Positions 2,723-15,252 of a stretch of 64,000 nt of DNA are shown piece after piece. The notes under the pieces are model-generated. The model made no database searches, was not told the DNA's origin, and saw only the letters and a program-made list of their open reading frames with translations. Within the stretch, counting starts at the first letter, position 1; every line of letters starts with the position of its first letter. The stretch spans positions 124,001 through 188,000 of the forward strand of contig NZ_JANHMQ010000002.1 in NCBI RefSeq assembly GCF_024609325.1, given 5' to 3'. The stretch is from Geothrix fuzhouensis. Its GTDB lineage: Bacteria; Acidobacteriota; Holophagae; Holophagales; Holophagaceae. The position numbers were made by a program, and so were the translations under genes.

Positions 2723-5317
2723 ATGCAACACCGACCTTTGAAACACCTCTGCGGCGCCATCGCCGCGGCCGCCGTGCTGCTCACGCTGGTCGCCTGCGAC
2801 GGCAAGACAGGCCCCGCCGGCGCGAACGGGACCAACGGTACGAATGGTACCAACGGCACAAACGGGACCAACGGCACCAACGCTGTTCCCCTGGTCGACG
2901 TCACCAAGCTGACGCCAGAAGCGTGGGCCGCCCTCAAGCCTGTGGGCCAGATCACCAGCGTCACAGTCGGCTCCGCCCCGGTGGTGAATTTCAAGCTGAC
3001 CGATGCGGCCGGGACGCCCATCGTGGGCCTCGGCGCCGTCACGTCGAAGAGCACCGTCCCCGATCGGAGTGGCAACCTCGCCACACTGGCCGGCTATCCC
3101 AATCTGGCCTTCGCCATCGCGAAGCTGGTGCCCGAGGATGCCACCACCAAGGCCCCCAGCAAGTGGGTCAGCTACATCGTGACCTCCGTGCCGGTGATCA
3201 AGGCCTCCACTGGCGCAACGATCGCGGTCGGACCCACCACGCCCACCACCGACAACACCGGCACCCTGGTGGACAATGGTGATGGCACCTACAAGTACAC
3301 CTTCTACCGCGACATCACCAAGACCCAGGCGGTCCTGGACGCGGCGACCTACACCGCCCCCAGCGACAAGGCCGACCTGGGTGACGTGACCTACGCGCCC
3401 ACCCTCGTCCATCGCATCACCCTGCAGTTCTCGGGTAACGCCCCCGGCACTGGCAGCAACACGCCTGATGGTGTGACGCTCACCCCCGGCGTGGCACTGG
3501 AGAATCCCATCAACCTGATTTACGACTTCGTGCCTGCCACGGGCGCCCCACTGGCAGCCGGGGCGGACAACCGCGATGTCGTGGCCATCGGCAACTGCAA
3601 CCAATGCCACGACAAGCTCGCCTTCCACGGCGGTGGCCGGGTCGAGGTGCGCTACTGCGCGGTCTGCCATACCGATCAGCGCAAGTTCGGTTATGCCGAA
3701 GCGGCCACCACGGCCACGGGCTACAACGCAACCACCGGCCAGCGCAAGATCAATGGCGGCGCCGTGGGCGATCTGACCGCCCTGGCTCACCGGATCCACA
3801 TGGGTGCCGAACTGACCAAGGACGGCTACAACTATGCCAACGTCAAGTTCGAGAAGCTCGGCTACTCGATGCTGGATGGTGGTCAGCGCATGTGCTCCAA
3901 GTGCCACGATGGCGTGGCCCAGGCTCAGAACTGGAACCTCAAGCCCAGCCGTCTGGCCTGCGGCACCTGCCACGACCAGGTGGACTTCGCCACCGGCGCG
4001 AACCACATGCCGGGCACCAACGTGCCTCAGGCCAATGATGCGGCCTGCAGCATCTGCCACGCCCCGGATGACATCAAGACCTATCACATGACGCTCAACG
4101 TGACGCCCCACAACCCGACGATCGCTGCCGGCCTGGTGACCTTCACCTATGAGATCAAGTCCGCTGCCGTCTCCGGTACCACCGCGACGGTTGTGTTCCG
4201 GATCAAGGCGGATGGAACCGCGGTCACCTACCTGCCCGCTGCCGCCGCCATGGCGAACCCCCTCACGGGCTTCACCGGCGCCCCCAGCTTCCTGTTTGCT
4301 TATGCCCAGGACCAGGACGGCATCACGGCCCCGGCCGACTACAACAACCTCGGCCGTGCCAATGGCCAGCCTCTGACGGTCTCCATCGCCGCCCTGCTGG
4401 ACACCAACAAGGCCCTGACCTCCGGTACGATGTCGGCCACGGCGGATGCCGACGGCTACTACACCGCGACCGTCCTCAATGCCTTCCCCGCGACCGCCAC
4501 GCTGCGTTCCGTCGCGCTGCAGGGCTACTTCACCCAGGTCAGCCCCGCGGCTCCGCGCCATGCCATTTCAGTGGTCAAGGGCGTCACGGGTGACACCGCC
4601 CGCCGCACCGTCATCGATTCAGCCAAGTGCGCGAACTGTCACGAGTGGTTCGAGGGCCACGGTGGCAACCGCGTCTACGAAGTCCAGGTCTGCGTCACCT
4701 GCCACGTTCCTGGCTTGACCACGAGCGGCCGTGGGTTGCCGGATACGTACCTGAATGGGCTCGCAGCCACGAGTGCGACTCGTCTCACCCTCGAGGCTTG
4801 GGGTGTGGATACCACAGCAGTGAACGCTGCCTTGGCCATTCCCCAGACCACCAACAACTTCAAGGACATGATCCATGGCCTCCACGCAGGGAAGGACCGG
4901 ACCAACCCGATCCACATCGCGCGCAATTTCCGCAACGCCGCGACGCTTGTGGATGGCGGCAACATCGGCTTCCCCGGCATCCTGAGCAACTGCCAGAGCT
5001 GCCACACGCCCACGGGCTACAACCTGCCCACCACGGGCAAGCTGTTCGCGAGCCGCGAATTGGCTGACAACGGCGCGATCCTCACGCCCGCCGATGCCAC
5101 CACCTCCCTGAACACCGTCAGCGCGACCGACAAGATGATCACGCCGTTCACCGCTGCCTGCGTCACCTGCCATGACAGCACCATCGCCAAGGCCCACATG
5201 GTCTCGAACGGTGGTCAGATCCTGGTGAACCGCAGCGCTTTGAATATCGCGAATGAAGCTTGCGCCACCTGCCACGGCAAGGGTTCTCAGTTTGACCCTG
5301 TCACGCTCCACAAATAG
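2723..5317 (+). CDS. Decaheme c-type cytochrome lipoprotein, OmcA/MtrC-like
   Basis: The 864-residue protein has a basic N-terminus, a hydrophobic core and a lipobox LVAC with the lipidated Cys at residue 25, so it should be a surface or outer-membrane lipoprotein. A collagen-like run of six GTN triplets (residues about 36-53) follows the lipid anchor and probably acts as a flexible tether. Ten CxxCH motifs (CNQCH, CAVCH, CSKCH, CGTCH, CSICH, CANCH, CVTCH, CQSCH, CVTCH, CATCH) lie between 3596 and 5275 in a five-plus-five layout with an intervening beta domain. The ATG is preceded by AAAGGAGA about eight bases upstream. This family carries electrons across or outside the outer membrane, and no porin partner (MtrB/MtrE type) is visible here. 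Its leader, shared with an rrf2 gene, suggests co-regulation with that regulator. Confidence 0.93.
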   Translation: MQHRPLKHLCGAIAAAAVLLTLVACDGKTGPAGANGTNGTNGTNGTNGTNGTNAVPLVDVTKLTPEAWAALKPVGQITSVTVGSAPVVNFKLTDAAGTPIVGLGAVTSKSTVPDRSGNLATLAGYPNLAFAIAKLVPEDATTKAPSKWVSYIVTSVPVIKASTGATIAVGPTTPTTDNTGTLVDNGDGTYKYTFYRDITKTQAVLDAATYTAPSDKADLGDVTYAPTLVHRITLQFSGNAPGTGSNTPDGVTLTPGVALENPINLIYDFVPATGAPLAAGADNRDVVAIGNCNQCHDKLAFHGGGRVEVRYCAVCHTDQRKFGYAEAATTATGYNATTGQRKINGGAVGDLTALAHRIHMGAELTKDGYNYANVKFEKLGYSMLDGGQRMCSKCHDGVAQAQNWNLKPSRLACGTCHDQVDFATGANHMPGTNVPQANDAACSICHAPDDIKTYHMTLNVTPHNPTIAAGLVTFTYEIKSAAVSGTTATVVFRIKADGTAVTYLPAAAAMANPLTGFTGAPSFLFAYAQDQDGITAPADYNNLGRANGQPLTVSIAALLDTNKALTSGTMSATADADGYYTATVLNAFPATATLRSVALQGYFTQVSPAAPRHAISVVKGVTGDTARRTVIDSAKCANCHEWFEGHGGNRVYEVQVCVTCHVPGLTTSGRGLPDTYLNGLAATSATRLTLEAWGVDTTAVNAALAIPQTTNNFKDMIHGLHAGKDRTNPIHIARNFRNAATLVDGGNIGFPGILSNCQSCHTPTGYNLPTTGKLFASRELADNGAILTPADATTSLNTVSATDKMITPFTAACVTCHDSTIAKAHMVSNGGQILVNRSALNIANEACATCHGKGSQFDPVTLHK

Positions 5318-5788: not shown

Positions 5789-6081
5789 GGCGGGTTTCAA
5801 GCTGGCGCGGAGCCGGACCATGGGCCCGGCCCCTGCGTTTAGAGGCGCCACCCAGCCCAATCCCTCTTCCACTCGGCGTCCACCCCCGCCTGCAAGGGGG
5901 GAGGGTCCGCCAGCACTCTAGCCCTGCGGCTCAGGCACCCCGACGGGAGCCGGGGCCTTGGCCGGTCTGGGGAAGGCGGCTTTCGCGGTCAGGGGGGCCG
6001 GCGGGAAGCCTCGGACCCATGGCTGGGGAGGTCCCGATCCAGGGGTACTAATTGCAGTTCTTTTCCAACTGTGAGTCAGTT

Positions 6082-6097
6082 GGTGACGCAAGTCACA
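6082..6097 (+). promoter_or_regulatory. CRP/FNR-superfamily-type palindrome upstream of rrf2
   Basis: GGTGACGCAAGTCACA matches the GTGA-N6-TCAC core bound by CRP-like regulators. It sits 11 bp before a TTGACT hexamer and about 80 bp before the rrf2 start. The binding protein cannot be named from this window. Confidence 0.5.
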
Positions 6098-6175
6098 AGG
6101 GTGGTTGACTCATTAGATTACCGGATGATCCTCATTGGAGAGACTCCGAAAGAACCATTCTTCCAGGAGGTGCAT

Positions 6176-6622
6176 GTGCTGCCCTTGTCCCAGACCACCG
6201 GTTACGCGTTACGCGCCATGCGCTGCCTCCAGGAACCCGGAGGGCAGCCGGTCCTGGTGGAGTCCGTGGCGGACTATACCGGCATCCCGAGGTCCTACCT
6301 CTCCAAGCTGGTTCACAAGCTCGCCAAGAAGGGGCTGGTCCAGGCCCGCCGGGGCCACCACGGCGGGGTGGTTCTGGCCAAGCCAGCCACGGAGATCACG
6401 CTGGAGGATCTCTCGGAAGCCATCGACGGCGTGGCTTGGCGCAAGCGCTGTATGATGGGCTTAGCGGGTTGCACGGAAGATACGCCCTGCGTCCTCCACG
6501 AGTACTGGAAGAGCACCCTGGAGGAGATCCTCGTGCGCCTGCGCTCGGTCACCCTGGCCGACATGTCCCGGCACCATGATCCCGGGGTGGAGCGCTTCCG
6601 CGCCGACCACGGGCTTGCCTGA
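6176..6622 (+). CDS. Rrf2-family transcriptional regulator with Fe-S cluster ligands
   Basis: I start this 148-residue protein at GTG 6176, because AGGAGG (6165-6170) stands five bases upstream and the family begins with (M/V)LPLSQTTGYALRAM. A longer upstream reading would turn the regulatory region into coding sequence. The N-terminal winged helix includes YLSKLVHKLAKKGLV and the typical GHHGGVVLAKP wing. Near the C-terminus CMMGLAGC, CTEDTPC and CVLH give C-x6-C-x5-C-x2-H. This closely resembles the C-x5-C-x5-C-x2-H ligand set of IscR and the three-Cys set of NsrR, so an Fe-S cluster sensing iron-sulfur, oxygen or NO status is likely. Its leader is shared with the cytochrome at 2723, pointing to autoregulation plus control of that gene. 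Confidence 0.88.
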   Translation: MLPLSQTTGYALRAMRCLQEPGGQPVLVESVADYTGIPRSYLSKLVHKLAKKGLVQARRGHHGGVVLAKPATEITLEDLSEAIDGVAWRKRCMMGLAGCTEDTPCVLHEYWKSTLEEILVRLRSVTLADMSRHHDPGVERFRADHGLA

Positions 6623-6693: not shown

Positions 6694-7239
6694 TCAGGCC
6701 TTCTTGGCGGCCGGTTTGGCGGCGACAGTCTTGCGGGCGGGGGCTTTCGCTCCGGTGGGCTTGGCAGCCTTCTTGGGTCGGGGCTTGAGCTTCCTTTCGG
6801 GAAGCGCATCCGCCAGGCGCCAGGTGCGGCTCTGCTGCTCGAAGGTGCGGATCTCTTCCAGGGAGATGTCCTTCAGGCAACGGTGGATGTGGTCGCGTTC
6901 GGACTTCCAGAAGGTGTGGGCGGGGCAGGCGCGCTCATCGGAGCAGTCCTTGAAACCCAGCAGGCATTGGTTGCGCCATTCGGCGCCATCCACCGCCTCG
7001 GCGATGAGGTCGAGGGTGATCTCCTTGGCGGCCAGGGCCAGCACCACGCCGCCCTTGTTGCCACGCTTGGCCATCACCAGGCCCACTTTCGCAAGCTTGT
7101 GGATCATCTTGGAGAGGTAGGGACGGGGGAAGCCGGTGCGCGCGGCCACGTCCACCACCAGCGTGGGCTTGCCACCGGGATCCTCGAGGCAGCTCATGGC
7201 CAGGACTGCGTAACCGGAGGATTGGGACAGTGGGAGCAT
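6694..7239 (-). CDS. Second Rrf2-family regulator with Lys/Ala/Pro-rich tail
   Basis: The 181-residue protein is a paralog of the regulator at 6176, with MLPLSQSSGYAVLAM at the start. The winged helix reads YLSKMIHKLAKVGLV followed by the RGNKGGVVLAL wing. The putative Fe-S ligands CLLGFKDC, CSDERAC and CPAH again give C-x6-C-x5-C-x2-H. Unlike its paralog it carries about 40 extra C-terminal residues rich in Lys, Ala and Pro (KPRPKKAAKPTGAKAPARK), a basic tail that could add nonspecific DNA contacts. I place the start at ATG 7239, the equivalent of the paralog start, with CAGGTG just upstream; an in-frame GTG at 7251 is the alternative. A perfect TGTGA-N6-TCACA site lies about 75 bp upstream. 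Confidence 0.87.
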   Translation of the reverse strand: MLPLSQSSGYAVLAMSCLEDPGGKPTLVVDVAARTGFPRPYLSKMIHKLAKVGLVMAKRGNKGGVVLALAAKEITLDLIAEAVDGAEWRNQCLLGFKDCSDERACPAHTFWKSERDHIHRCLKDISLEEIRTFEQQSRTWRLADALPERKLKPRPKKAAKPTGAKAPARKTVAAKPAAKKA

Positions 7240-7314
7240 GGTCACCTGCACAGGAATGGAAGATGATTCGATCCTGAATGATAGACGATGTTCAGGTCAA
7301 TCACATTCAAAGAG

Positions 7315-7330
7315 TGTGATTTCCTTCACA
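7315..7330 (-). promoter_or_regulatory. Consensus CRP-type site upstream of the second rrf2
   Basis: TGTGATTTCCTTCACA is a perfect TGTGA-N6-TCACA palindrome. Reading leftward it is followed by GTGATTGACC, giving a TTGACC -35-like hexamer. Similar boxes occur at 2506, 6082 and 14941. Confidence 0.55.
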
Positions 7331-7336
7331 ATGCGC

Positions 7337-7363
7337 GAGACCCCCGGATCGCCCGGGGGTCTC
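7337..7363 (-). terminator. Hairpin after the nifJ operon
   Basis: GAGACCCCCGG (7337-7347) pairs perfectly with CCGGGGGTCTC (7353-7363). It lies just beyond the stop of the leftward-read gene ending at 7381. There is no clear U tract, so it may act as a processing or stability hairpin rather than a classical terminator. Confidence 0.6.
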
Positions 7364-7380
7364 GGCGGAAGGCGGAGGTT

Positions 7381-8373
7381 CTAAGCCTTCCAGCCATTCA
7401 GAATGCGCATGTAGTTCGCGCGGGTGAAGGCCTGGGCGTTCGGGCACTTCTGCAAGCTCATGCTGCCCCGGGCCTGGGCCAGGGACTCGTACTCGTGCTC
7501 CTCCAGCCACTCGGCCAGGGTCGCCCGGGTCTGGGCCAGGCGCTCGGGCCCGTGGATCAGCAGGGCGGAGACCATCTGCACGGCGTCCGCGCCAGCCATG
7601 ACGGCCTTGAGGGCGCCGATGCCGTCATGGATGCCGCCGGTGGCCGCGAGGCTGCCCTTGACTTGGTTATGCAGCACCGCCAGCCAGCGCAGGCGAAGCA
7701 GCAGATCCTCAGGGCCTGAGAGTTGCAGGCTGGGTTCGGCGGTCAGCTCCTCCACGTTGATGTCGGGCTGGAAGAACCGGTTGAAGAGCACCAGGCCATC
7801 GGCGCCGGCCGCCTCCAGTTCCACGGCGAAGTGCGCCAGGGAGGAGAAGAAGGGCGAGAGTTTCACGGCGACGGGAATCGTCACCTGGGATTTCACCGCA
7901 CGCACGATGTCGAGGGTGCGCTTCTCGACTTCGGTGGAGGATTCCTTCGGATCCGTCGCCAGATAGTAGACGTTCAACTCCAGGGCGTCGGCCCCGGCCT
8001 CCTGCATGAGCTTGCCGTAGTGCAGCCAGCCCGCGGATGTGGTGCCGTTCAGGGAGGCGATGACCGGAACGGCCACGGCTTCTTTGATGCGGCGGAGCTG
8101 CTCGAGGTACTTCTCAGGGCCCAGGCGGAACTCGTCGGGCTTGGGGAAGAAGGAGATGGCTTCGGCACTGGAGTTCGAAGACAGCTCCATGTCCATGATG
8201 GTGCCCTGCTCTTCGCGGGTGATCTGCTCCTCGAAGAGCGAGTGCATGACGATGGCGGAAGTACCCGCATCTTCGAGGCGCTTGACCATACCCATGTCGT
8301 CGACCATGGGCGAAGCGCCCGCCATCAACGGATGGGCCAGCTTGAGGCCGAGGTAGGTGGTGGAGAGGTTCAT
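7381..8373 (-). CDS. Dihydroorotate dehydrogenase-like flavoprotein
   Basis: The 330-residue protein has a TIM-barrel flavoprotein pattern of the dihydroorotate dehydrogenase superfamily: MNLSTTYLGLKLAHPLMAGASP at the start, VIASLNGTTSAGW, ALELNVYYLATDP, VAVKLSPFF, and the phosphate-binding ATGGIHDGIGALKAVMAGADAVQ near the C-terminus. It begins only 11 bp after nifJ and is read in the same direction, so the two form one operon. Proteins annotated as DHOD-like commonly sit beside pyruvate:ferredoxin oxidoreductase genes, and their true substrate is not established. No other pyrimidine gene is near, so a biosynthetic pyrD role is doubtful. An electron-transfer role linked to PFOR is inference only. 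Confidence 0.85.
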   Translation of the reverse strand: MNLSTTYLGLKLAHPLMAGASPMVDDMGMVKRLEDAGTSAIVMHSLFEEQITREEQGTIMDMELSSNSSAEAISFFPKPDEFRLGPEKYLEQLRRIKEAVAVPVIASLNGTTSAGWLHYGKLMQEAGADALELNVYYLATDPKESSTEVEKRTLDIVRAVKSQVTIPVAVKLSPFFSSLAHFAVELEAAGADGLVLFNRFFQPDINVEELTAEPSLQLSGPEDLLLRLRWLAVLHNQVKGSLAATGGIHDGIGALKAVMAGADAVQMVSALLIHGPERLAQTRATLAEWLEEHEYESLAQARGSMSLQKCPNAQAFTRANYMRILNGWKA

Positions 8374-8384
8374 GGCGTCTCCCT

Positions 8385-11300
8385 TCAGCTTTCCTTGGCC
8401 GTGACGGACAGCTTGGCGAGCTGTTCGTAGACGGAGTAGCGGTTGGTGGTGTCGAGTTGGGCCTGATCCATGAGCTTCTTGAAGTGCTCGGGGTTCTGCT
8501 GCTCGATCATGCGGTAGCGGGTCTCATTGCGGACGTACTGGAGCATGGGGACCTTGGGCGCGCCGGAATCCATTTGCAGGGGCACTTCACCCTTTTCCAG
8601 CCGGCGGGGGTCGAAGCGGAACAGCGGCCAGTGGCCGGAGTCCACGGCGAGCTTCTGCTGGTCGGCACCGTGGGCCAGGTCGTAGCCGTGGGCGATGCAG
8701 TGACTGTAGGCCAGGATGAGGCTGGGGCCGTTGTAGGACTCCGCTTCCTGGAAGGCCTTCACCGTCTGCGCGTCGCGGAAGCCGAAGGCGACCTTGGCCA
8801 CGTAGATGCCGCCGTAGGTCATGGCGATCATGCTCAGATCCTTCTTGGGCATGCTCTTGCCGGCCATGGCGAACTTGGCGCCGGCACCCATGGGCGTGGA
8901 CTTGGAGGCCTGGCCGCCCGTGTTGGAGTAGACCTCGGTGTCGAGCACCAGGACGTTCACGTTGCGGCCGGAGGCGAGGACGTGATCGAGACCGCCGTAG
9001 CCGATGTCATAGGCCCAGCCGTCGCCGCCCACGATCCAGACGCTCTTGTTGACCAGGTAGTCGGCCAGGTCGTAGAGCATCTTCGCTTCGGGCTCTTTGA
9101 GGCCCGCCAGCTTCTGCTTGAGGATCTCCACCCGCTCGCGCTGGGCCTTGATACCCGCTTCGGTGGTCTGGTTTGCGGTGGCGATGCCGGTGATGAGCTC
9201 ATCGCCAAGCTGGGCGGCCAGGCGGTGCATCAGCTCCAGGGCGAATTCCTGGTGCTTGTCCACGGAGAGGCGCATGCCCAGGCCGAATTCCGCGTTGTCC
9301 TCGAACAGGCTGTTGGCCCAGGCGGGGCCGCGGCCGTCCTTGTTCACGGTGTACGGCGTGGTGGGCAGGTTGCCGCCGTAGATGCTGGAGCAGCCCGTGG
9401 CATTGGCGATCAGGGTGCGGTCGCCGAAGAGCTGGGTGAGCAGCTTGATGTAGGGGGTCTCGCCGCAGCCGGAGCAGGCGCCGGAGAACTCGAAGAGCGG
9501 CTCCAGGAACTGGCTACCCTTCACGTCCAGCTTGACCTTGGTGCGATCGGCCTCGGGCAGGTCAAGGAAGAACTTGAAGTTGGCCGCCTCGGCCTCGCGG
9601 AGCGGATCCTGGGCCACCATGTCGATGGCCTTGTGCTTGGGGTTGCTCTTGTCCTTGGCGGGGCAGACTTCCACGCACAGCGTGCAGCCCGTGCAATCTT
9701 CGGGCGCCACCTGGATGGTGTACTTCTGGCCCTTGTACTCGGGACCCTTGTAGTCCACACCCTTGAAGGTGGCGGGGGCATCGTCCAGCTCGGAGGGATC
9801 GTAGACCTTGGCGCGGATGGCGGCGTGAGGGCAGACCATCGCGCACTTGTTGCACTGGATGCAGATGGAGGCGTCCCACTCGGGGATCTCCAGGGCGATG
9901 TTGCGCTTCTCCCACTTGGTGGTGGCCAGGGGCCAGGTGCCATCCACGGGGAAGGCGCTGACCGGCAGCAGGTCGCCCTTGCCCTCCATCATCACGGCGG
10001 TGACGCGCTGGACGAAGTCCGGGGCCTCGGCGGGCACCACGGGGGGCCGCACGCGAGAGGAGGTGACGGTCGCGGGGACCTTCACCTGATGCAGGTGGGC
10101 CAGGGTCTCATCCACCGCCAGGAAGTTCTGCTGGACGATCGCATCACCCTTCTTGCCGTAGGTCTTCTTGATGGCCTTCTTGATCTGGGCGATGGCCTCC
10201 TCACGGGGCAGCACGCCACTGATGGCGAAGAAGCAGGTCTGCATGATGGTGTTGATGCGGACGCCCATGCCGGTGTTCTTGGCCACTTCGTAGGCGTCGA
10301 TCACGTAGAACTTGAGCTGCTTCTCGACGATGGCCTCCTGCACTTCCTTGGGCAGGGTGTCCCAGACGGTCTCGGCGCTGTGGGGCGTGTTGAGCAGGAA
10401 GGTGGCGCCGGGAGCGGCGGGTTCGAGCATTTCGTACTTCTCGAGGAAGCTGGTCTGGTGGCAGGCGATGAAGTTGGCCTTCGTCACCAGGTAGGCGCTC
10501 TTGATGGGCCGGGGGCCGAAGCGCAGGTGGCTGATGGTGATGGCGCCGGACTTCTTGGAGTCATAGACGAAGTAGCCCTGGCCGTAGTTGGGGGTCTCTT
10601 CCGCGATGATCTTGATGGAGTTCTTGTTCGCGCCCACCGTGCCGTCGGCGCCCAGGCCATAGAACAGGGCGCGGGTCACGTCGCTGGGTTCCACATCGAA
10701 GCTCGCGTCGTAAGGCAGGGAGCTGTGGCTCACATCGTCCATGATGCCGATGGTGAAGTGGTTCTTCGGCTTGTCCTGGGCCAGGTTGTCGTAGATGGCC
10801 TTGACCATGGCCGGCGTGAATTCCTTGGAGGACAGGCCGTAGCGGCCGCCCACGACGATGGGATCGAGCTTGGTGTGGCCTTCCTCGCGGCCCTCGCGCA
10901 GGGCCGCGATCACGTCCAGGTGCATGGGGTCGGCGGGCGCGCCGGGTTCCTTGCAGCGGTCCAGCACGGCCAGTTTCTTCACGGAGGCGGGCAGGGCGCG
11001 GACGAACTCGGAGATGGCGAAGGGCCTGAAGAGGCGAACCTTCAGGACGCCCACCTTCTCACCCTGCTTCACGGCCCAATCGACGTATTCGTGGGTCACG
11101 TCGCAGCTCGAGCCCATGGTCACGACCACGCGCTCAGCCTCGGGATGGCCATAGTAGTCGTAGAGGCGGTAGTTGCGGCCCGTCAAGGCGCCGAAGCGGT
11201 CCATCTCCTGCTGCACGATCGCGGGGAAGGCGGCGTAGAACGGGGTGCAGGCTTCGCGGGCCTGGAAGAAGGTGTCGGGATTCTGGGCGGTGCCACGCAG

Positions 11301-11945
11301 GACGGGAGCGTCCGGCGTCAGGGCCATCTTGCGGAACTTGGCCACTAGTTCGTCGGGCACCATGTGACGCAGGTCCTCATCGTTGAGGATCTCGATCTTG
11401 GCGATCTCGTGGCTGGTGCGGAAGCCGTCGAAGAAGTGCAGGATGGGCACGCGGCTGCGCAGGGTGGCGGCGTGGCTGATGGCCGCGAAGTCGTGGGCCT
11501 GCTGCACGCTCTCGGAGCTGAGCATGCCGAAGCCAGTCTGGCGGCAGGCCATCACGTCCGAGTGGTCGCCAAAGATGCTGAGCGCGTGGGCGGCCAGGGT
11601 GCGGGCGGTGACGTGCATGCAGAAGGGCGTCAGCTCGCCGGCGATCTTGTACATGTTCGGGATCATCAGGAGCAGGCCCTGGGACGCCGTGAAGGTCGTC
11701 GTGAGGCTGCCGGCCTGAAGCGAGCCGTGGACCGCGCCTGCGGCGCCGCCTTCGGACTGCATCTCGATCACCGAGGGAATGGTCTTCCAGACATTGGTCT
11801 TGCCCTGGGAGCTCCACTCATCCGCCCACTCGCCCATGTTCGAGGAGGGCGTGATGGGGTAGATGGCGATGACTTCGCTGAGGCGATGGGCGACCGAGGC
11901 GGTGGCCTCGTTCCCATCCAGGGTCTTCATCACTCGCTGGGTCAT
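8385..11945 (-). CDS. nifJ: Pyruvate:ferredoxin (flavodoxin) oxidoreductase
   Basis: This 1186-residue single-chain PFOR oxidises pyruvate plus CoA to acetyl-CoA and CO2, reducing ferredoxin or flavodoxin in the cytoplasm. Domains follow the usual order: N-terminal pyrimidine-binding domain (MKTLDGNEATASVAHRLSEV, YPITPSSNMGE), the central gamma-like domain, a two-cluster ferredoxin domain (CIQCNKCAMVCPHAAIR and CTGCTLCVEVCPAKDKS), the proximal-cluster cysteines (FSGACSGCGETPY) and the TPP site GGDGWAYDIGYGGLDH. I chose ATG 11945 because GGAAGGAG stands eight bases before it; a further 12 residues of open frame upstream lack this. Length is typical. It heads an operon with the DHOD-like gene. 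Confidence 0.97.
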   Translation of the reverse strand: MTQRVMKTLDGNEATASVAHRLSEVIAIYPITPSSNMGEWADEWSSQGKTNVWKTIPSVIEMQSEGGAAGAVHGSLQAGSLTTTFTASQGLLLMIPNMYKIAGELTPFCMHVTARTLAAHALSIFGDHSDVMACRQTGFGMLSSESVQQAHDFAAISHAATLRSRVPILHFFDGFRTSHEIAKIEILNDEDLRHMVPDELVAKFRKMALTPDAPVLRGTAQNPDTFFQAREACTPFYAAFPAIVQQEMDRFGALTGRNYRLYDYYGHPEAERVVVTMGSSCDVTHEYVDWAVKQGEKVGVLKVRLFRPFAISEFVRALPASVKKLAVLDRCKEPGAPADPMHLDVIAALREGREEGHTKLDPIVVGGRYGLSSKEFTPAMVKAIYDNLAQDKPKNHFTIGIMDDVSHSSLPYDASFDVEPSDVTRALFYGLGADGTVGANKNSIKIIAEETPNYGQGYFVYDSKKSGAITISHLRFGPRPIKSAYLVTKANFIACHQTSFLEKYEMLEPAAPGATFLLNTPHSAETVWDTLPKEVQEAIVEKQLKFYVIDAYEVAKNTGMGVRINTIMQTCFFAISGVLPREEAIAQIKKAIKKTYGKKGDAIVQQNFLAVDETLAHLHQVKVPATVTSSRVRPPVVPAEAPDFVQRVTAVMMEGKGDLLPVSAFPVDGTWPLATTKWEKRNIALEIPEWDASICIQCNKCAMVCPHAAIRAKVYDPSELDDAPATFKGVDYKGPEYKGQKYTIQVAPEDCTGCTLCVEVCPAKDKSNPKHKAIDMVAQDPLREAEAANFKFFLDLPEADRTKVKLDVKGSQFLEPLFEFSGACSGCGETPYIKLLTQLFGDRTLIANATGCSSIYGGNLPTTPYTVNKDGRGPAWANSLFEDNAEFGLGMRLSVDKHQEFALELMHRLAAQLGDELITGIATANQTTEAGIKAQRERVEILKQKLAGLKEPEAKMLYDLADYLVNKSVWIVGGDGWAYDIGYGGLDHVLASGRNVNVLVLDTEVYSNTGGQASKSTPMGAGAKFAMAGKSMPKKDLSMIAMTYGGIYVAKVAFGFRDAQTVKAFQEAESYNGPSLILAYSHCIAHGYDLAHGADQQKLAVDSGHWPLFRFDPRRLEKGEVPLQMDSGAPKVPMLQYVRNETRYRMIEQQNPEHFKKLMDQAQLDTTNRYSVYEQLAKLSVTAKES

Positions 11946-12087
11946 GCTTCGCTCCTTCCGAGGGCGGTACGCGGGGCGCATCCGAAGATAGATTTCAGGA
12001 CAGGCAATGGCATTTCAGAACAGACCAAACAGCACGGCCATCATATCTGATGGATGGGTCAATATTCATCACAACCCGGTCGAGTGG
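11946..12087 (-). promoter_or_regulatory. Promoter region of nifJ
   Basis: The 142-bp gap between the Nfn fusion and nifJ has a locally AT-rich stretch (12000-12070). Read leftward it contains TTGTGATGAATATTGACCC followed 11 bp later by TATGAT. The second rrf2 promoter has the same TTGACC-N11-TAT(C/G)AT arrangement (7260-7300). The 11-bp spacing is too short for a sigma-70 promoter, so this may be a shared operator. Confidence 0.35.
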
Positions 12088-14865
12088 TCAGACCGCAACC
12101 TGAGGTTCGCCCATGAGGCGGTGGTGGATGGCGGCCGCCGCCCGGCGACCCTGGCCCATAGCCAGAATCACCGTGGCACCGCCGGTGATGACGTCGCCAC
12201 CGGCGAAGACGCCCGGGAGCGAGGTTTCGCCCGTTTCGTTGTCCACCACCACCACGCCACCCTTGAGGGTCTTGAGGCCCTTGTCGGTCTGGGCGATGAG
12301 GGGGTTCACATCAAAGCCCAGGGCCACCACCAGGGTGTCGCAAGGGATCATGATGCGCTCGTCGGTCATCTTGGGGCTGCGGCGGCCGTCGGGACCGGGC
12401 TCGCCCAGCTCCATGACGGCGCACTCGGCGTGGGTCATCCAGCCCTTGTCGTTGCCGTGGAGCTGCACCGGGGTGGTGAGGTACTTGAATTCGACCCCCT
12501 CCTCCATGGCGTGCTCGAGTTCCTCCTTGCGGGCCGTAGATTCCTTCACGGTGCGGCGGTAGACCACCGTCACGTGCTCGGCGCCCATGCGGCGGGCGGC
12601 GCGGGAGGCGTCCATGGCGGTGTTGCCCGCACCCACGATGATGACGTGCTTGCCGACGGTCACCGGGGTGGAGTACTCGGGGAAGAGGTCCGCCCGCATT
12701 AGGTTGATGCGGGTGAGGAACTCGTTGGCGGTGTAGACGCCCTTGTACTCCTCGCCCGGGATGCCCATCATCTTGGGCAGGCCGGCGCCGGTGCCCATGA
12801 AGATGGCGTCGTTCTCCTGGCGGAGGTCGTCCAGGGTCATGCTGCGGCCGATGAGGGTGTTCATGACGAACTTCACACCCAGGCGGCGGAGCGTCTCCAC
12901 TTCCTGATCCACGATCTTGTTGGGCAGGCGGAACTCGGGGATGCCGTAGAGCATCACGCCGCCGGGCTTGTGCAGGGCATCGTAGACCGTGACGCGGTGG
13001 CCCTTCTTGATGAGCTCGCCGGCCACCGTGAGGCCCGCGGGGCCTGCGCCGATGACAGCCACCTTCTTCCCCGTGGCGGCTTCGACAGGAGGCAGCTCGG
13101 TGGAGCCGAGCATGGAATCACAGGCGAAGCGCTCCAGGCGGCCGATGGAGACGGGCAGGCCCTTGATGCCCACGACGCACTTGATCTCGCACTGCTTCTC
13201 CTGGGGGCAGACGCGGCCACAGACGGAGCCCAGCGAGGAGCTTTCCTTGATGACCCGCGCGGCGGCCTGGGGATCCTCGTTGACGATCTGCTGCAGGAAG
13301 GCCGGGATGTTGATGCTCACCGGGCAACCTTCGATGCAGGCGGGATGCTTGCACATGATGCAGCGGGCAGCTTCGAGCTTCGCCTGCTCGGGCGACAGGC
13401 CCAGGCTCACCTCGTCGAAGTTGCACACGCGCAGCTCCGGCGGCTGGCAGGCCATCTCCTGGCGGGGGATCTTCATCTTCTGGCTGGGCTTGATGGCCCG
13501 CAGATCGAGGTTCTGCCAGTCCAGCTCGGTGACGGGGTCGTTCAGGTACTTGGAGTAGTCCACGGGGCCGGTGGCGGCCACGCGGCCGATCTTGCACTGA
13601 TCGGGCTCACAGATGTCCTTCTCTTCCTGCTTGTACCAGTCGGACCGCATGCGGAGCATGTTGAAGTCGACCTGGTGGCCGTCGAAGTCGGGGCCGTCGA
13701 AGCAGGCGAACTTGGTCTGGCCGCCCACGCTGACGCGGCAGCCACCGCACATACCCGTGCCGTCCACCATGAGGGCGTTGAGGCTCACCAGGGTGAAGAT
13801 GCCGTGGGGTTTCGTCAGGTCGGACACGGCCCGCATCATGGGCAGGGGGCCCACGGCCACCACCTGGGCGACCTTCTCGCGGGCGATGACATCCTTGAGG
13901 GCGTCCGTGACCAGGCCCTGGCGACCCAGGGTGCCGTCATCGGTGGTGACGATCAGTTCGGCGGAAGCCGCGCCCAGCTCGTCGGCGAGCAGCACGCGCT
14001 CCTTGCTGCGGCCCCCCAGGATGGTGATGACCCGGCGGCCCTGGGCGTGGAGGGCCTCGGCGGCGGGCAGGATGGCGGCGGAACCGTAGCCACCCGCCAT
14101 CAGCACGATGGTGCCTTCCTCCACCAGCTCGGTGGGGGTGCCCATGGGGCCGGCCACGGCGTAGAACCGGTCGCCGGCGCTGAGGCGGCCCATGGCCTTC
14201 GTGGTGGCGCCGACCTCCTGCATGATGAAGTGGATGTAACCCTTCTTCGCATCGCCACCCGCCAGGGTGAGGGGGATGCGCTCGCTCTCGGGGAAGGGGG
14301 CGACCATGAAGAACTGGCCGGGCTTGCGGCCCCGGGCCACCTGGGGCGCCTGCACGATGAAGGACCAGGTCTCCGGGGCGATGAGCTTCTTCTCGAGGAT
14401 CAGGTAGCCGTCCTGGGTCTCGTCCTCGGACCAGTACAGGGACTTCCCCTTGAGGAGGGGCAGCATGAGCTTCTCCTCGGCCTCGATGTGGTCGCGGATC
14501 AGGTCCACCAGGCGCTGACCCAGCAGGGTGAGGGACCGGGGCGCCCGGACCTGGCCCTCGTTGATCTCAGCCAGCAGCTGCAGGTCCAGGTCCCACATCT
14601 GGCGGTGGTCCTCCTGGAGGCGCTGGAGCAGGGCTTCCGCCCCGATTTCCTCGAGCAGGGGGAAGAGCTCGCGCTCCTCGGCCTCGTTGTGGGGCTTCAG
14701 CACTTCAAAAATCCACTTGGCGGCGAGGTCCACGGCCTTCCAATCCCCGGCCCCCAGGGCCTCCGCCAGGCGAGTGAGCCGTTCCTGAGCCTCCTGATGG
14801 GTGGCATGCCAGTGCGGCGCGGGCAGATTCTCGGCGGTGATCAGCTGATTGGCCGTGTCGGACAT
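12088..14865 (-). CDS. Hemerythrin-like domain fused to NfnA- and NfnB-type ferredoxin:NAD(P)H oxidoreductase
   Basis: The 925-residue protein has three parts. Residues 1-140 form a hemerythrin-like (HHE) four-helix domain with the di-iron ligand pattern His20/23, H59-x3-E63, H87 and H126-x3-E130. Residues about 150-430 match the FAD/[2Fe-2S] ferredoxin-NAD(P) reductase subunit NfnA/SudB, including the cluster motif DGTGMCGGCRV and FACFDGPDFDGH. Residues about 450-925 match NfnB/SudA (glutamate synthase small-subunit-like): CIMCKHPACIEGCP and CGRVCPQEKQCEIKC for [4Fe-4S] clusters, GAGPAGLTVAGEL for FAD, GAGNTAMDASRAARRMG for NADPH and GVFAGGDVITGGATVI at the end. Nfn enzymes couple NADH, NADPH and ferredoxin by flavin-based bifurcation. 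The hemerythrin part could sense or scavenge O2 or NO. The triple fusion is the unusual feature. Confidence 0.9.
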   Translation of the reverse strand: MSDTANQLITAENLPAPHWHATHQEAQERLTRLAEALGAGDWKAVDLAAKWIFEVLKPHNEAEERELFPLLEEIGAEALLQRLQEDHRQMWDLDLQLLAEINEGQVRAPRSLTLLGQRLVDLIRDHIEAEEKLMLPLLKGKSLYWSEDETQDGYLILEKKLIAPETWSFIVQAPQVARGRKPGQFFMVAPFPESERIPLTLAGGDAKKGYIHFIMQEVGATTKAMGRLSAGDRFYAVAGPMGTPTELVEEGTIVLMAGGYGSAAILPAAEALHAQGRRVITILGGRSKERVLLADELGAASAELIVTTDDGTLGRQGLVTDALKDVIAREKVAQVVAVGPLPMMRAVSDLTKPHGIFTLVSLNALMVDGTGMCGGCRVSVGGQTKFACFDGPDFDGHQVDFNMLRMRSDWYKQEEKDICEPDQCKIGRVAATGPVDYSKYLNDPVTELDWQNLDLRAIKPSQKMKIPRQEMACQPPELRVCNFDEVSLGLSPEQAKLEAARCIMCKHPACIEGCPVSINIPAFLQQIVNEDPQAAARVIKESSSLGSVCGRVCPQEKQCEIKCVVGIKGLPVSIGRLERFACDSMLGSTELPPVEAATGKKVAVIGAGPAGLTVAGELIKKGHRVTVYDALHKPGGVMLYGIPEFRLPNKIVDQEVETLRRLGVKFVMNTLIGRSMTLDDLRQENDAIFMGTGAGLPKMMGIPGEEYKGVYTANEFLTRINLMRADLFPEYSTPVTVGKHVIIVGAGNTAMDASRAARRMGAEHVTVVYRRTVKESTARKEELEHAMEEGVEFKYLTTPVQLHGNDKGWMTHAECAVMELGEPGPDGRRSPKMTDERIMIPCDTLVVALGFDVNPLIAQTDKGLKTLKGGVVVVDNETGETSLPGVFAGGDVITGGATVILAMGQGRRAAAAIHHRLMGEPQVAV

Positions 14866-14940
14866 GGACGCCTCCAGATCTGTTCAGCATGCGACGACCT
14901 GGGAGGGATTTCTGTGTCTAAAAACCTATTCGGGTGCACT

Positions 14941-14956
14941 TGTGACTCATGCCACA
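14941..14956 (-). promoter_or_regulatory. CRP-type site upstream of the hemerythrin-Nfn fusion
   Basis: TGTGACTCATGCCACA matches TGTGA-N6-TCACA with one mismatch and lies 76 bp upstream of the start codon. A TTGACC hexamer is found further upstream on the same strand (14987-14992 as GGTCAA on the plus strand). The rest of the 387-bp gap 14866-15252 shows no supported gene. Confidence 0.45.
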
Positions 14957-15252
14957 GGAGGCTTGAATCGCAAGGACTTAGGCTGGTCAATTATCATTCT
15001 GTATGGATTATTTGGTTGTAGATCTCGGATCTCAACTGCCGCGAATCTCCCGGACTCCAGCCACCCGTGGGCGCCTCCGGAAGGACGTGTGGAGGAAACC
15101 GTCGTGGGGCAGGTGCGCAGTCCCTCCAGGAACCCCGTCCCTCGGTAGCCAATGATAGAGGATCAGGGGGGACGCCAGGCTGGTCTCCAGGGAGGAGCGC
15201 CCGCCACGGAAGGCCGGCCTGCGGTAGGGTGGAAGGTCCCGGAGGCCTCCCT

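Follow-up and report, generated by a model that had tools for sequence, protein, structure and literature searches.

Enzymes of the NfnAB type are made of a small half bearing a [2Fe-2S] cluster (called NfnA here) and a large half (NfnB). In NfnAB of Thermotoga maritima (4ylf) and NfnSL of Pyrococcus furiosus (5jca) these are two chains, and in the fused proteins of, for example, Clostridium autoethanogenum and Bacteroidaceae (Pattern B in the available part of PMC6405883; NCBIfam model PRK12778) they form one; a hemerythrin-like (HHE) domain is present in neither case. The protein analysed here is encoded in a stretch of 64,000 nucleotides from Geothrix fuzhouensis (contig NZ_JANHMQ010000002.1, positions 124,001 to 188,000; hereafter the window), and combines HHE, NfnA and NfnB parts in a single polypeptide. 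It resembles the two-chain enzymes in the sequence and fold of both halves, in the Asp/Cys and Glu/Cys cluster ligands and in the N5 arginine, and it has the NfnA-NfnB order, the cofactor ligands and the core length in common with the Pattern B proteins. Proteins of the PRK12775 type are likewise NfnAB chains with an extra di-iron-type helical domain, but theirs is a ferritin/rubrerythrin-like domain, located at the opposite (C-terminal) end and found in another clade. The attachment of HHE appears to be the new element, fused NfnAB and NfnAB with a di-iron-type domain being already known.

The HHE part has its own counterparts in YtfE/RIC and in the hemerythrin-like protein (HLP) of Mycobacterium, which share the set of four His and two Glu ligands and the four-helix bundle but occur as proteins on their own; YtfE in addition carries ScdA_N, and the mycobacterial HLP, an NO peroxidase, has an additional Tyr ligand (from the available part of PMC8913304). 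The [FeFe]-hydrogenase-rubrerythrin chimera of Clostridium perfringens is described, in the part of PMC11926857 at hand, as an H2-driven H2O2 reductase using its own electrons. It is similar to the present protein in that a redox enzyme is joined to a di-iron module, and differs in its core, in its di-iron family and in that its activity was measured, whereas the present protein is known from sequence. A fusion of flavodiiron protein and rubredoxin reductase is reportedly an oxidase (PMC9364112). In the text available from a 2019 review of Nfn (PMC6405883), four architectures are distinguished, hemerythrin is not mentioned, and the eight Acidobacteria genomes counted contain one Nfn; the available text of a hemerythrin survey (PMC4919030), covering 56 architectures of O2-binding hemerythrins, names none with Nfn. 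An earlier note on this stretch, made from its letters, knew of no NfnA-NfnB fusion carrying hemerythrin; a literature search over titles and the beginnings of abstracts, with thin coverage of subscription papers, agreed with it, as no report of an HHE-Nfn fusion was found, nor any paper pairing NfnAB with Geothrix.

Architecture and cofactor ligands

The gene (12088..14865, minus strand, as for all parts of the protein) is a frame of 925 amino acids with an ATG start and its sole stop at the end, and the same frame is found in many genomes. The HHE domain (residues 18-138; 14452..14814) was recognized by Pfam PF01814, Hemerythrin (49.8 bits for a cut-off of 25.3), by the conservation of its ligands and by four predicted helices. 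It is followed by a linker (residues 141-150; 14416..14445) with pLDDT below 50 in the deeper of two models, after which the junction motif GYLILEK begins at residue 153. The NfnA part (residues 153-425; 13591..14409; FAD/NAD fold and [2Fe-2S]) was assigned by Pfam, NCBIfam and alignment to PDB entries, and the NfnB part (residues 460-920; 12106..13488; two [4Fe-4S] and a second FAD) by Pfam, PDB match and ligands, the other Pfam matches above cut-off being DHODB_Fe-S_bind (364-400), Fer4_20 (480-585) and Pyr_redox_2 (600-906). The NfnA-NfnB fusion model PRK12778 aligned to residues 155-918 with 950.6 bits, under its own cut-off of 1103, and PRK12775 reached 776.1 bits for a cut-off of 1895, with a match that stops at profile position 752 of 1006. 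The identity of the three parts is close to certain, and the three-part fusion proposed in the earlier note was upheld by Pfam, by NCBIfam and by the intact frame.

Among PDB sequences, T. maritima and P. furiosus NfnAB gave the top matches. In the [2Fe-2S] site, D368, C373, C376 and C388 align with the small subunits of both organisms; the Cys are invariant in all 23 fusions of a selected, aligned set and D368, presumably a cluster ligand, is invariant in alignment A1. The pair of [4Fe-4S] clusters is represented by C502, C505, C510, C514, C553, C559, C563 and E578. These seven Cys are kept in at least 22 of the 23 fusions (the remaining row, L050, is out of frame there), and E578, which is opposite P. 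furiosus E126 in an alignment counted by hand, is invariant in alignment A1. At the bifurcating flavin (the second FAD), R646 is opposite T. maritima R187, also counted by hand, and is nearly invariant, one row being incomplete. The roles of the aligned residues, including R187, were taken from the available parts of PMC9503767 and PMC6405883, the former giving aspartate or glutamate as the non-Cys ligand of the Nfn [2Fe-2S] cluster. All tested cofactor ligands were thus present, as the earlier reading of the FAD and Fe-S motifs had it.

Structures were predicted with AlphaFold using alignments of 31 rows (mean pLDDT 68.4, pTM 0.44) and of 121 rows (88.5 and 0.79), and the second model was used. 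Its NfnB part matched the large subunit of P. furiosus NfnI (5jca_L) with Z 46.7 and a root-mean-square deviation of 1.6 over 456 aligned residues, and its NfnA region matched PyrK (5ksw_B) with Z 30.7 and 2.0 over 244 residues. This comparison bears on the Nfn parts, no chain among the 50 matches listed spanning the HHE part. For the latter a confident four-helix bundle was predicted (helices 17-39, 42-66, 77-100 and 109-137; pLDDT in blocks of about 79-96).

The complete HHE ligand set consists of H23, H59, E63, H87, H126 and E130 (pattern H-HxxxE-H-HxxxE). The earlier note had correctly named H59xxxE63, H87 and H126xxxE130, which are present in all 23 aligned fusions, and had overlooked H23. 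In these 23 sequences H23, H59, E63, E64, H87, H126 and E130 are invariant, so that none of the six ligands is missing from the profile alignment; H20 is kept in 21 and E61 in 22. The same seven positions are kept in 18 of 18 HHE rows (15 fused, one detached and two stand-alone). The carrier motifs of O2-binding hemerythrins are HxxxH and HxxxxD. Their ligand set (five His, Glu and Asp) was not found here, as W91 stands four residues past H87 and HxxxE stands at 126-130, and the carrier models gave 17.9 bits (TIGR02481, cut-off 51.75) and 14.4 bits (NF033749, cut-off 84). The top PDB match of the HHE profile was YtfE (E 1.3e-6), with H59, E63, H87, H126 and E130 opposite YtfE H129, E133, H160, H204 and E208 in an alignment over 45-136; H23, which lies before the start of this alignment, would by analogy correspond to H84. 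The ligands of YtfE are given as H84, H129, E133, H160, H204 and E208 in the available part of PMC9268430. The RIC/YtfE model TIGR03652 nevertheless scored 14.1 bits for a cut-off of 204.7, and ScdA_N (PF04405), usual in RIC/YtfE, was not found in a Pfam search with 16 families. As judged from these alignments, the ligand set matches YtfE and not the O2-carrier hemerythrins; reversible O2 binding can therefore not be taken for granted, and the putative di-iron site may react with O2, with peroxide or with NO. The earlier interpretation holds for the three-part fusion and its ligands; its reading of HHE as an O2- or NO-binding domain is adjusted accordingly.

The median dN/dS (ratio of nonsynonymous to synonymous substitution rates; 66 pairs of 12 same-genus sequences) was 0.19 for the HHE part versus 0.14 for both Nfn halves, which indicates purifying selection on HHE, and the median dN was 0.11 versus 0.05, HHE being the faster-evolving part.

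Distribution of the fusion and natural variants

The fusion is present in a single copy in the whole genome. Of the 61 family genomes, 44, belonging to seven genera, have HHE and NfnA in one frame, and a frameshift or assembly artefact joining two genes, which the earlier note had named as a possible objection, was excluded because the same frame recurs across so many genomes. All 31 same-genus genomes carry the fusion, 30 of them spanning query residue 1-2 to 918 or beyond, and the last (G058) having it in pieces on one contig. The 13 carriers in six other genera are G004, G005, G006, G007, G010, G011, G015, G023, G024, G026, G029, G031 and G033; among these, NfnB is in a separate frame in G006, the gene is split over two contigs in G024, and G011, G026 and G029 cover the query incompletely. 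A second fused copy in G023 (L049:7358-10096) has a more diverged HHE, in which E61 and nearby residues are lost and the ligands are kept. The fusion is missing from 17 of the 61 genomes, G036 and G002 having a different NfnAB pair instead.

In a search of 396 genomes of the phylum, the fusion was found in 33 of 39 family members, and outside the family none of the matches listed (to about 3e-60) starts before query residue 118. With the HHE part alone as query (199 genomes), weak partial matches were obtained in four genomes outside the family. Among the best 80 of 594 stretches of named genomes, HHE was present in 4 and no HHE profile matched the other 76, although fusions with a more diverged HHE may exist elsewhere; these carriers are Holophagaceae and Acidobacteria metagenome-assembled genomes (MAGs), including one labelled Bacillota (L061), whose match position is the same as on the contig of G007, a family member. 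In the phylogenetic tree, the HHE rows are on one side of a branch with support 74/94, present in 75 percent of bootstrap trees.

Variants of the architecture were found within and outside the family. In G036 (genus g5), NfnA and NfnB are separate genes belonging to another clade of the tree, and a 184-residue HHE frame, whose end retains the trace GYLML of the junction, directly follows NfnAB. This HHE shares 47-54 percent identity with four of the five fusions of genus g5, 41 percent with the fifth (L049), 46 percent with that of G007 and 37-42 percent with the remaining fusions. We read it, from one MAG contig, as a detached HHE module kept beside a replaced Nfn. Four Acidobacteriota genomes of other families encode NfnAB with a rubrerythrin-like domain at its C-terminus, with PF02915 scores (cut-off 22.8) of 23.9 (L141), 22.3 (L142), 21.5 (L143) and 26.6 bits (L145) and PRK12775 scores (cut-off 1895) of 1629 for L142 and 1433.6 for L145; the two of these proteins placed in the tree are both in another clade than the HHE fusions.

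Other combinations were also observed. In MAGs of Methylomirabilota and Flavobacteriales (L072:5065-6816 and L112:5164-6834), NfnA is extended at its N-terminus by about 300 HEAT-repeat-like residues, and in another Acidobacteriota genome (L139:94-3543) it forms the C-terminal end of a 1150-residue molybdopterin/NuoG-like protein. Stand-alone HHE proteins of 271-275 residues in G004 and G010 (L170:1114-1926 and L171:1444-2268) have the same seven conserved residues; Pfam gives Hemerythrin only, the N-terminal part being without match. The source genome (G000) has ten PF01814 places above cut-off (C1:1200744, 1411239, 1408279 and 1126918; C2:523045, 558741, 669869, 37455 and 138452; C3:279066), including two RIC proteins and one GGDEF-hemerythrin protein.

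Possible functions of the HHE domain

The survival of bifurcating flavin/Fe-S enzymes and of pyruvate:ferredoxin (flavodoxin) oxidoreductase (PFOR) in anaerobes during oxygen transients is poorly known. Here an entire genus, with members of six related genera, keeps a candidate O2, peroxide or NO site joined to a bifurcating enzyme, and within the genus the fusion always adjoins PFOR (20 of 20 loci compared). The different di-iron-type domain found on the same core elsewhere in the phylum suggests a repeated need, and the natural variants (HHE fused, absent or detached) permit a direct comparison.

A guard or scavenger is considered as the main function of HHE, with a probability of about 0.4. 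The core would be an NADH/ferredoxin/NADP+ transhydrogenase using PFOR-reduced ferredoxin, and HHE would provide a flexibly tethered di-iron site, a resident guard of the oxygen-labile Nfn and PFOR that would react with arriving O2, H2O2 or NO before these enzymes do. The oxidised site may be re-reduced by its own chain (NAD(P)H via flavin or [2Fe-2S]) or with electrons from reduced ferredoxin, in which case the protein would be a self-contained scavenger. This function was put first because PFOR adjoins and an electron source sits in the same chain; it is favoured by the six invariant ligands, by the purifying selection on HHE, by the constant adjacency of PFOR within the genus and its presence, together with a dihydroorotate dehydrogenase-like gene, at a locus of another genus (L056), by the position of HHE beside NfnAB in G036 even when detached, and by the recurrence of a di-iron-type domain on NfnAB in other Acidobacteriota. 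The hydrogenase-rubrerythrin chimera and the flavodiiron fusion mentioned above are self-contained analogues. In Campylobacter jejuni, the hemerythrins HerA and HerB shield PFOR and OOR from O2, by prevention and not by repair (available part of PMC4257069). Protection of Nfn or switching of electron flow by HHE, as the earlier note suggested, is plausible, and the C. jejuni case together with the neighbouring PFOR makes protection more credible.

Several observations weigh against a guarding role. Because the curated bacteriohemerythrin and RIC models failed, HHE is a generic domain that the profiles place in no characterised subfamily. The linker has low confidence in the second AlphaFold model, which gave no inter-domain error, and is probably flexible; the modelled orientation of HHE is therefore uncertain, and of the structure prediction called for in the earlier note, the four helices came out confidently while packing near the flavin was not confirmed. 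The electron path from flavin/Fe-S to the putative di-iron site is hypothetical. Genus g2 (G001, G012, G021) has NfnAB that is 65-68 percent identical and carries no HHE, so that the Nfn core can live without it, the tree leaving both a loss of HHE in g2 and its original absence possible. In other genera, PFOR and the dihydroorotate dehydrogenase-like (DHOD-like) gene that follows it were not found within the stretch examined in nine of ten loci with HHE and NfnA, L056 alone showing PFOR, DHOD-like and fusion. Finally, PFOR is preceded by a separate conserved element and may have its own promoter, which makes it uncertain whether PFOR and the fusion are transcribed together.

The same parts may make up a self-sufficient O2/H2O2/NO reductase on a bifurcating core, in which NAD(P)H or ferredoxin would feed HHE and only oxidants would open a third, high-potential exit. 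Exits of this kind would then have arisen on NfnAB two or more times (HHE and rubrerythrin-like); we hold this reading to be somewhat unlikely. A sensor switch, in which ligand binding or oxidation at HHE would lower or divert electron bifurcation with no turnover at the di-iron site, appears unlikely: HHE domains do act as sensors elsewhere, a GGDEF-hemerythrin protein is encoded in the same genome, and the Rrf2-type regulators and CRP-type elements at the locus suggest redox- or gas-responsive control, but the low-confidence, probably flexible linker argues against tight mechanical coupling, and HHE is a separate protein in G036.

Donation of iron to the Nfn and PFOR Fe-S clusters, or repair of these clusters, in the manner of RIC/YtfE, would fit with a ligand set equal to that of YtfE and with YtfE as top PDB match. 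It is rather improbable, the domain being far under the RIC model and devoid of ScdA_N, with V55 aligned to E125 of the YtfE iron channel and with two proper RIC proteins elsewhere in the genome, although redundancy is possible. The simple anatomy of a tethered domain would also suit a passive local buffer, binding O2 or NO stoichiometrically and merely delaying damage with no catalytic turnover, and sequestration is named as a possibility for C. jejuni in the available part of PMC4257069; with a single site on each chain, however, the capacity to cope with diffusing O2 would be small, as is also noted there, and this explanation is improbable. That HHE is a structural passenger aiding folding, oligomerisation or docking (e.g. 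to PFOR), its metal incidental, is the least probable explanation considered: its faster evolution relative to Nfn would agree with it, but none of the six ligands varies in the 23 aligned fusions or in the 18 HHE rows.

Neighbouring genes and upstream elements

Downstream of the fusion, on the same strand, are PFOR (8385..11981, -; TIGR02176, 1805 bits, cut-off 911), the DHOD-like gene (7381..8373, -; PRK07565, 432.5 bits, cut-off 303) and a gene for an Rrf2-type regulator with a three-cysteine motif (Rrf2b; 6694..7251, -; Pfam), followed by a convergent gene for a second Rrf2-type regulator (Rrf2a; 6071..6622, +; Pfam). This order was the same in the 20 same-genus loci compared, out of 30 others with the gene. 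A terminator-like hairpin 3' of the DHOD-like gene (7336..7364) is present in most of 21 genomes.

In a 21-genome alignment, two conserved elements were found upstream of the fusion, namely a CRP/FNR-type palindrome, CTGTGnCATGnnTCACAA (14940..14957, -), and TTAGGTTTTTAGACACAG (14910..14929, -). The exact form CTGTGN7TCACAA occurs once in the whole genome, before the fusion, and TGTGN7TCACAA four times in 3.3 Mb, two of them here (before the fusion and before Rrf2b). Another element, TTGACC-N5-ATC-N3-TATgAT, lies between the fusion and PFOR (12040..12062, -); upstream of Rrf2b are a palindrome (7315-7331) and TTGACC-N5-ATC-N3-TATcAT (7278-7300), and no further copy of the common form TTGACC-N5-ATC-N3-TATsAT turned up in the window at one mismatch or fewer. 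Because upstream elements are shared within it, the locus looks co-regulated.

Rex was considered as the regulator of the palindrome, the geometry of which fits, but was set aside as the genome has no PF06971 match. Hcp (PF03063), looked for in relation to nitrosative control by an HcpR-like regulator, is absent from the genome. A CRP-type regulator beside a RIC gene (L210) could not be tied to the fusion, as no matching palindrome is beside it (one match with one mismatch versus 1.75 expected).

Palindromes resembling TTGTGN7TCACA, counted on both strands, are enriched in the window (8 at one mismatch or fewer versus 1.8 expected; none of 100 shuffles had as many), with sites at 2506-2522, 2598-2614, 6082-6098, 7315-7331 and 14940-14957. 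Two of them precede the gene at 2723-5317 (+), whose product is an outer-membrane multiheme cytochrome of MtrC/MtrF type (PF22113).

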